In this document: positions 22,425 through 24,479 of the stretch, one piece after another
Layout: each line of letters begins with the position of its first letter
Position numbering within the stretch: the stretch's first letter is position 1
Source: Devosia chinhatensis
GTDB lineage: Bacteria > Pseudomonadota > Alphaproteobacteria > Rhizobiales > Devosiaceae
Assembly: GCF_000969445.1 (NCBI RefSeq)
Contig: NZ_JZEY01000061.1
Location: 62,001-126,000 of the forward strand
DNA length: 64,000 bases
Direction of reading: 5' to 3'
Program-made: the position numbers and the translations under genes
The notes under the pieces: generated by a model
What the model was told of the DNA's origin: nothing
Database searches by the model: none
What the model saw: only the letters and a program-made list of their open reading frames with translations

Positions 22425-22450
22425 TTCGTGCGCCTCCCAAACTTGGTTAC
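22425..22450 (-). promoter_or_regulatory. ECF sigma promoter for the Met-rich/cytochrome/molybdo-enzyme operon
   Basis: On the minus strand GTAACC (22450-22445), exactly 16 nt, then CGAA (22428-22425). This is the same bipartite motif as at 22496-22521 on the other strand, and from memory it matches the reported Caulobacter SigF promoter GTAACC-N16-CGAA. The predicted transcript would start near 22418, giving a leader of about 48 nt before ATG 22370. Confidence 0.75.
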
Positions 22451-22495
22451 GGCTTCACGCAGCCGTGTTCTGTGATCGCTTTTTTATCCAGCCAT

Positions 22496-22521
22496 GTAAC
22501 CTCTCCCATGCCGCAAGCGAA
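22496..22521 (+). promoter_or_regulatory. ECF sigma promoter for the sigma/anti-sigma pair
   Basis: GTAACC (22496-22501), 16-nt spacer, CGAA (22518-22521), exact. Transcription would begin about 22528, just 4 nt before ATG 22532, so the sigma gene would be nearly leaderless. The motif overlaps the alternative start ATG 22508, which argues against that start. Its identity with the divergent motif implies autoregulation by the sigma factor encoded here. Confidence 0.75.
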
Positions 22522-23783: not shown

Positions 23784-24479
23784 TTACTCGGCGAGTGCCT
23801 GGGCGTAACGGTCGGACACTTCATCCCAGTTCACCACATCCCACCAATTGCTCAGATATTCCGCGCGGCGGTTGTTGTAGGTGAGATAGTAGGCGTGTTC
23901 CCACACGTCATTGCCCAAAACGGGCGTGCCCTGCACTTCGGCCAGGTCCATCAGCGGATTATCCTGGTTTGGCGTCGTGGTGATTTCGAGTTCACCGGCA
24001 TCGGTTACCACCAGCCATACCCAGCCCGAACCGAACCGACCAGCACCGGCTTCCTCGAAGGCCGCCTTGAACTCGTCCATTGAGCCATAGACCGCATCGA
24101 TCGCCGCCGCAAAGTCATCGCTGGGCTCACCGGCTTCTTCGACCGGCCCGATGATCTGCCAGAAGAAGGTATGGTTCCAATGGCCGCCGGCGCTATTGCG
24201 GATCCCCGTAGGATATTCGCTCGCCGATGCGACCAAGTCCTCGACATTGGCGTCAGCAGGGATGGTGCCGTCTTCGACAGCATTGTTGAGGTTGTCGACA
24301 AAGCTCTGATGGTGCTTGCTGTGATGCAGCTCCATCGTTTGCGCGTCGATCACTGGTTCGAGCGCGTCATAATCGTAGCCGAGCTCCGGCAGGCTGAAGG
24401 CTGCACTTTCCTGGGCCATGGCCGGCATGGAAAGGGCGAGGACGGCGATCGCGGCGCCGGTAGCGGGCATGAAATTCAT
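23784..24479 (-). CDS. sodA: Exported Fe/Mn-family superoxide dismutase, Mn-like signature
   Basis: 231 aa including a signal peptide (MNFMPATGAAIAVLALSMPAMA-Q), so it acts outside the cytoplasm. Metal ligands are in ELHHSKHHQSF, GGHWNHTFFW and NDVWEHAYYL. GG before the second ligand and NQDNPLM in the C-terminal domain are the E. coli MnSOD-type pattern; FeSOD has AAQ and no NQD. Mn or cambialistic metal use is inferred. The start has AAAGGA. It is close to, but not under a visible motif of, the SigF pair. Confidence 0.88.
   Translation of the reverse strand: MNFMPATGAAIAVLALSMPAMAQESAAFSLPELGYDYDALEPVIDAQTMELHHSKHHQSFVDNLNNAVEDGTIPADANVEDLVASASEYPTGIRNSAGGHWNHTFFWQIIGPVEEAGEPSDDFAAAIDAVYGSMDEFKAAFEEAGAGRFGSGWVWLVVTDAGELEITTTPNQDNPLMDLAEVQGTPVLGNDVWEHAYYLTYNNRRAEYLSNWWDVVNWDEVSDRYAQALAE

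Follow-up and report, generated by a model that had tools for sequence, protein, structure and literature searches.

A divergent pair of promoters in Devosia chinhatensis very probably belongs to a self-contained switch of the ECF16 (SigF/NrsF) type, which would respond to oxidation in the envelope and serve methionine repair. Switches of this kind have already been described, in Brucella and relatives, and what is new is the comparative picture: the sigma cassette has been lost repeatedly in the genus with the enzymes kept, distant promoters have decayed to match, and the genome studied here seems to be midway. The argument, made from sequence only, is that methionine-sulfoxide repair is the function of this branch of SigF circuits, and the genus amounts to a natural experiment on how a sigma circuit is dismantled, the same enzymes being found with and without the switch and promoters decaying where the switch is gone. 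The window is the whole stretch of DNA that was analysed (64 kb), and the features of interest in it are given in Table 1.

Table 1. Predicted features of the divergent locus, with positions in the window
Feature	Positions	Strand	Details
SigF-type promoter P-	22425..22450	-	-35 GTAACC 22450-22445, -10 CGAA 22428-22425; exact match
SigF-type promoter P+	22496..22521	+	-35 GTAACC 22496-22501, -10 CGAA 22518-22521; exact match
ECF sigma factor, SigF/ECF16 type, 183 aa	22532..23083	+	PF04542, PF08281 over cut-off
NrsF-type anti-sigma factor, 211 aa	23080..23715	+	Cys128 and Cys178; PF06532 165.5 bits, cut-off 26.8
mrpX-like gene, 93 aa	22089..22370	-	ORF; signal peptide by eye; Shine-Dalgarno AAGGGAG 22384-22378
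b-type cytochrome, 282 aa	21156..22004	-	PF01292 79.2 bits, cut-off 30.1
Molybdo-enzyme, MsrP-like, 263 aa	20368..21159	-	Twin-arginine signal; PF00174 104.4 bits

The divergent promoter pair

As the first-pass annotation had reported, the exact motif GTAACC-N16-CGAA stands on both strands of a 161-nt intergenic region, where it forms a divergent, outward-facing pair between the probable start codons of an mrpX-like gene (22370) and of a sigma factor gene (22532). The annotation had taken the motif for a Caulobacter SigF promoter, which agrees with the GTAACC-N16-CGAA given in PMC3511200, and P+, upstream of the sigma gene, matches exactly the ECF16 consensus tGTAACc-N16-CGAA as quoted in PMC3420878. 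Only 0.03 such sites are expected in the 64-kb window and none of 100 shuffles had two. P- is predicted to start transcription of the mrpX-like, cytochrome and molybdo-enzyme genes at ~22418, and P+ that of sigF-nrsF at ~22528. Among the 28 genus relatives having the module, P- is kept at the same place in 27 and P+ likewise in 27, with both present in 26 (L077 and L081 have one site each).

The frequency of the motif, which had been proposed earlier as a test, gives function no support. Genome-wide, GTAACC-N16-CGAA has three exact matches versus eight for the reversed pattern (130 versus 246 with one mismatch) and GTAAC-N17-CGAA has 10 versus 23, while GTAAC-N17-CGAATR has two, both at the divergent pair, versus two. 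Reversed-pattern controls being as frequent or more so, the bare motif shows no genome-wide enrichment; its frequency was rejected as proof and the case for function rests on position and phylogenetic conservation. The third exact site (C61:126927-126952, minus strand) was discarded as a target and is probably a chance match; it lies antisense over what appears by eye to be the ribosome-binding site of a small ORF. The eight other GTAAC-N17-CGAA sites all overlap, on one strand, open frames of 151 aa or more; one of them, at C54:1576236-1576261, is also 162 nt upstream of an HxlR-like gene, of which it may be a promoter.

The sigma factor and its anti-sigma factor

The earlier reading of the plus-strand genes as a sigma factor and NrsF is borne out by the PF06532 match of the second product, whose gene lies directly downstream of the sigma gene, as in ECF16 loci, and overlaps it by 4 nt. 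The NrsF-type protein scored 117.3 of the 300 bits needed for the NCBIfam equivalog NF042994. It has the two conserved cysteines of ECF16 anti-sigma factors, Cys128 being found in 32 of 36 aligned rows and Cys178 in 34; in the relatives L074, L076, L077 and L078, Cys128 has been lost and Cys178 kept. A change of the equivalent cysteine was described as de-repressing in both Caulobacter (PMC3511200) and Bradyrhizobium japonicum (PMC3420878).

The sigma start codon is 11 nt past the -10 box of P+, and the ATG is found 10 to 12 nt after it in all 28 loci of the genus that have P+, among them that of the window (17 nt in L071, from another family). Variation in codons 2-12 is mostly at third positions, the pattern of translated codons (22 sequences). 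With this spacing, and with transcription starting as far from the -10 box as was mapped for ecfF of B. japonicum (~6 nt; PMC3420878), the sigF mRNA is probably nearly leaderless. The SigF loci L147 and L165 have no in-frame ATG, GTG or TTG in the conserved N-terminal stretch within the first 45 nt after the -10 box, and translation there may begin at an unusual codon or further downstream.

The minus-strand operon

Behind P- are found in a row, as in bcrXQP/MrpX-type modules, genes for an exported Met-rich peptide, a b-type cytochrome and a twin-arginine molybdo-enzyme, which are predicted to form one operon. These assignments had all been made in the first-pass annotation and they stand, although the Tat signal model itself scores under its cut-off on the molybdo-enzyme (15.5 of 22.7 bits). 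The mrpX-like gene starts ~50 nt downstream of the -10 box, and its product has nine Met in the 69 residues after the signal peptide, around a Cys-pair segment, and reaches 15.6 of the 41 bits required by the MXKDX model TIGR02953. Ten of the 28 relatives have no such gene at that place, and their P- reaches the cytochrome gene after 82-150 nt (for L077, which has no P- match, the absence was read from gene order), suggesting that the circuit can do without the Met-rich scavenger.

The cytochrome, in which His 26, 126, 233 and 247 are invariant (32 of 32 aligned rows), belongs to PF01292 instead of PF01794, the family of MsrQ (YedZ). A PF01794 search of the genome gave no match, with four of 14 control genomes positive, E. 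coli included. In the modules that were examined (the window, Brucella tritici and one beta-proteobacterial type), the membrane partner is PF01292 and not of the MsrQ family.

The molybdo-enzyme gene overlaps the cytochrome gene by 4 nt. MsrP (YedY) is the top-scoring NCBIfam model on its product, at 79.6 of the 207 bits of the equivalog cut-off, ahead of SorA (59.9 bits) and SoxC (47.6 bits), and its best solved relative is 1xdq (E 1.4e-13), which is filed as a bacterial sulfite oxidase and which we take to be E. coli YedY/MsrP. Cys134, aligned with 1xdq within a CVEAWS-like stretch (CVEGWS) and present in 33 of 33 rows, is the probable Moco cysteine, the Cys of such stretches being presumably the residue that binds Moco. 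The sequence VSGC at 24-27, with Cys27 in 32 of 33 rows, is presumably a lipobox and the enzyme a probable lipoprotein. MsrPQ was rejected as a family name for the module, the enzyme being below the MsrP cut-off and the cytochrome PF01292.

Conservation and probable targets in the genus

NrsF was searched in 61 genomes (the present one, 36 others of the genus and 24 of the order) and found in 34, namely the present one, 29 of the 36 and four of the 24. In 28 of the 29 NrsF-bearing genus relatives, the sigma gene adjoins the cytochrome and molybdo-enzyme genes. Devosia equisanguinis has the module as well, with a molybdo-enzyme and cytochrome 86% and 85% identical to those of the window. The whole module is also found in L071 (another family) and in Brucella tritici (L143).

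A search for GTAAC-N17-CGAATG in 41 genus genomes gave 94 matches versus 45 for the reversed pattern in the 28 cassette relatives and five versus 10 in the seven genomes without NrsF (two versus one in the present genome, one versus none in G022, and 11 versus seven in four genomes unscored for NrsF). Forty sites besides the local ones were taken out for inspection. In the genus, the motif precedes genes for exported MsrB, cytoplasmic MsrB, exported and cytoplasmic-type MsrA and DsbD-type proteins, as well as DUF2189, DUF3179 and DUF1223 genes, and in one relative (L350) it is directly upstream of a DUF2282 gene; seven of 23 inspected sites (L344, L349, L351, L352, L355, L360 and L122) are inside genes and look like chance. 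The partial protein of L348, which has no Pfam match, was called DsbD-type because it is 68% identical to the L125 protein, which does. This regulon points to methionine-sulfoxide repair.

The association is sharpest for MsrB. A census of 77 of the 82 PF01641 matches (three in G033, one in G034 and one in G062 were left out) found the motif at exported MsrB genes in 28 of 28 cassette genomes versus none of seven without NrsF, and at cytoplasmic MsrB genes in 19 of 27 (eight lack it) versus none of six; motif and cassette are thus lost together. Reversed and antisense control patterns gave no match in the main census rows. The motif was present at two of two exported and one of three cytoplasmic MsrB genes in the NrsF-unscored genomes G061-G064, and at neither of two in G022, whose NrsF is in another type of locus and one of whose MsrB genes, labelled exported by the script, may not be. 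Seventeen of the MsrB loci (L106-L120, L123 and L124) were first found through the motif, after which the exported MsrB of every cassette relative was examined; the msrB locus L300 has the motif too. At cytoplasmic msrB genes (L116-L120, L124 and L245), a CTATAT sequence stands between the two boxes of the SigF site and is kept where these have decayed, perhaps as part of an overlapping second promoter or an operator. DUF1223 genes may recur with ECF16 sites: one is behind the motif in the genus (L346), and a cluster represented by L140, found in six of 107 divergent loci among the matches listed, resembles DUF1223.

In the present genome, none of the two msrB and two msrA genes has the motif. 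At the cytoplasmic msrB gene, the CCTATAT core is kept and the box positions read CGCAC (-35) and CCAAGA (-10). The wider stress regulon supposed in the first-pass annotation is thus unsupported in this genome, where the motif picks out just the two local promoters. Judged by it, the regulon seems to have shrunk to the divergent pair, probably by contraction, although the site before the HxlR-like gene may belong to it and there may be further, strongly altered sites.

Loss of the cassette and decay of its promoters

In nine genomes of the genus, the cytochrome gene is beside ThuA with no sigF-nrsF between; seven of them are without NrsF (G007, G012, G013, G016, G017, G029 and G032), one has the other NrsF (G022) and one is unscored (G064). 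The molybdo-enzyme gene is visible in eight of these loci, the sequence of the ninth breaking off within the cytochrome gene. A gene for an exported Fe/Mn superoxide dismutase is found in the window at 23784-24479, between nrsF and ThuA, and in G032 between the cytochrome gene and ThuA, and is missing from six cassette relatives compared. In an rpoB tree built from 26 genomes of the genus with one outgroup (G017, which is 62% complete, and G064 are not included), the absence of the cassette needs seven changes, at least four of which are forced by well-supported branches. Losses are likelier than gains because the whole module is also found in L071 and in Brucella tritici L143, and the tree and gene order thus indicate that the sigma cassette was lost several times within the genus, the cytochrome and molybdo-enzyme being retained.

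G032 is sister to the cassette genome G014 (100/99, rpoB tree), and the boxes of its cytoplasmic msrB read GTAAG (-35) and CCAATG (-10), with CGTATG as the -10 of its exported msrB. The present genome is itself sister to G013, which has no cassette (100/99, rpoB tree). Re-acquisition of the cassette is disfavoured by the module tree, which places its module near those of G001 and G004, and by the synteny of the locus with ThuA; for the same reasons vertical descent is more likely, although there may have been allelic exchange. It is an even call whether all this reflects a contracting ECF regulon, in which the cassette is deleted repeatedly, msrB boxes decay by point changes and distant targets are possibly lost before the sigma factor. 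The last point is suggested by the present genome, which has kept the sigma gene and lost the motifs at msr genes and whose nearest rpoB relative, G013, has no cassette.

A proposed mechanism and its alternatives

In the scheme that we infer, the membrane protein NrsF, with its two conserved cysteines, would hold SigF until an oxidant acts on it, most likely through Cys178. The SigF so freed would bind and start transcription at both promoters, P+ yielding more SigF and NrsF from the nearly leaderless mRNA. The products of P- would be the Met-rich peptide, absorbing oxidant in the periplasm, the membrane cytochrome and the exported, probably membrane-anchored molybdo-enzyme. The cytochrome would hand electrons from quinol to the molybdo-enzyme, which would reduce methionine sulfoxide both in the peptide and elsewhere among the envelope proteins. 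SigF would, in most of the relatives sampled, drive MsrB, MsrA and DsbD-type genes as well, an outer ring that the present genome appears to have lost.

The first-pass annotation had suggested that the operon repairs oxidised or metal-stressed targets. Oxidised envelope methionine is favoured by the MsrB/MsrA/DsbD-type regulon of the genus, and metal stress is the less likely signal because the DUF692/DUF2063-type operons of Caulobacter SigF and of RpoE7 (PMC6180224) are not found beside this sigma gene. A circuit for metal stress (chromate, cadmium or copper), with a Met-rich peptide that binds metal and a molybdo-enzyme of side function, would explain why the promoter and NrsF family are shared with the chromium- and cadmium-responsive SigF of Caulobacter (PMC3511200), why a DUF2063-represented cluster is found in 69 of 107 divergent ECF16 loci among the matches listed and why one relative has a DUF2282 gene directly behind the motif, but it is rather improbable given that methionine-sulfoxide reductases and DsbD-type genes make up most of the sigma neighbours and motif-linked genes in the genus.

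We also regard it as unlikely that the molybdo-enzyme and cytochrome form a sulfite or other small-molecule oxidoreductase, methionine being repaired only by MsrA and MsrB elsewhere. PF00174 does include sulfite oxidases, the SorA and SoxC models score on the enzyme, and plasmid-borne pairs (see below) are accompanied by a TetR regulator and by a protein of 202-210 aa in stretches where no sigma factor is annotated. However, a CVExWS stretch aligns with 1xdq, the best solved relative, MsrP is the highest of the NCBIfam models and the sigma factor seems to drive both MsrA and MsrB in the genus. As for the two motif copies having arisen by chance, the genes being under other control, the genome-wide counts no higher than reversed-pattern controls would allow it, but it is scarcely credible for exact, divergent copies conserved together in nearly all module-bearing relatives, with distant copies missing or decayed where the sigma gene has been lost.

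Relation to known systems

Methionine repair under an ECF16 factor has close parallels. The bcrS-abcS/bcrXQP system of Brucella, an ECF16 system responding to HOCl, has the same divergent GTAACC-N16-CGAA pair, an NrsF-type anti-sigma factor and the same peptide-cytochrome-molybdo-enzyme order (PMC8315932). In Brucella tritici, where a Met-rich peptide completes the same layout, the cytochrome and molybdo-enzyme are 57% and 59% identical to those of the window; the window differs from Brucella in its peptide, where a Cys-pair segment takes the place of plain MXKDX repeats, and in its NrsF, which shares only 37% identity with the B. tritici protein. Judged from the B. tritici cytochrome, which is PF01292 and not PF01794, MsrQ as the Brucella authors use it seems to be the name of a role. 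The hypochlorite system of Azospira likewise combines SigF/NrsF and the Met-rich MrpX with a putative reductase and membrane partner, YedYZ (PMC4623255), but among the matches listed, loci of this type (largely beta-proteobacterial by record title) have the peptide gene after the enzymes, which are 26-44% identical to those of the window.

EcfF/OsrA of B. japonicum, also ECF16 and autoregulated, drives three methionine-sulfoxide reductases and a DsbD-like gene, targets that resemble the regulon proposed for the genus, although its motif is GTAAC-N14-15-CG and the Msr genes of the present genome lack a motif (PMC3420878). Caulobacter SigF/NrsF and Sinorhizobium RpoE7/EcfR7 share the promoter, the type of sigma/anti-sigma pair and the conserved cysteines, and the latter the divergent layout too, but their main targets as described are DUF692/DUF2063-type operons, with metal stress in Caulobacter (PMC3511200, PMC6180224). 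E. coli MsrPQ is similar in that a periplasmic molybdo-enzyme is fed by a membrane haem protein (PMC8315932); it differs in the family of the membrane partner, PF01794 being without a match in the present genome, and in the MsrP cut-off that the present enzyme does not reach. A literature search, with most subscription journals outside its coverage, returned no account linking Devosia with NrsF; the matches listed for methionine sulfoxide reductase together with Devosia deal with hens, seeds and animal diets, and the genus is not named in the titles or abstract beginnings of papers on MrpX, bcrXQP, YedY1 or SigF.

When 84,980 species, each represented by one genome, were scanned for the divergent pair, it was found in at least 119 stretches from other genomes, of which, among the matches listed, 107 have an adjoining sigma homologue and 12 do not. 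Opposite the sigma gene in these 107 are, besides the DUF2063-represented cluster, a DUF2282-represented one (28), the molybdo-enzyme (20), a PF01292-type cytochrome (19), an MXKDX-like peptide (16; its cluster representative has no Pfam match), MsrB (five) and MsrA (four), the last two named by eye.

The cytochrome/molybdo-enzyme pair is also found on plasmids of Agrobacterium, Paroceanicella, Rhizobium and Variovorax (L101 2913-5277, L103 3771-6116, L104 3727-6089 and L105 2959-5277), with no sigma factor or NrsF annotated nearby. There it follows a TetR regulator and is preceded by the 202-210-aa protein, which has a signal-like start and no clear family, an arrangement that is perhaps a second way of controlling the pair.
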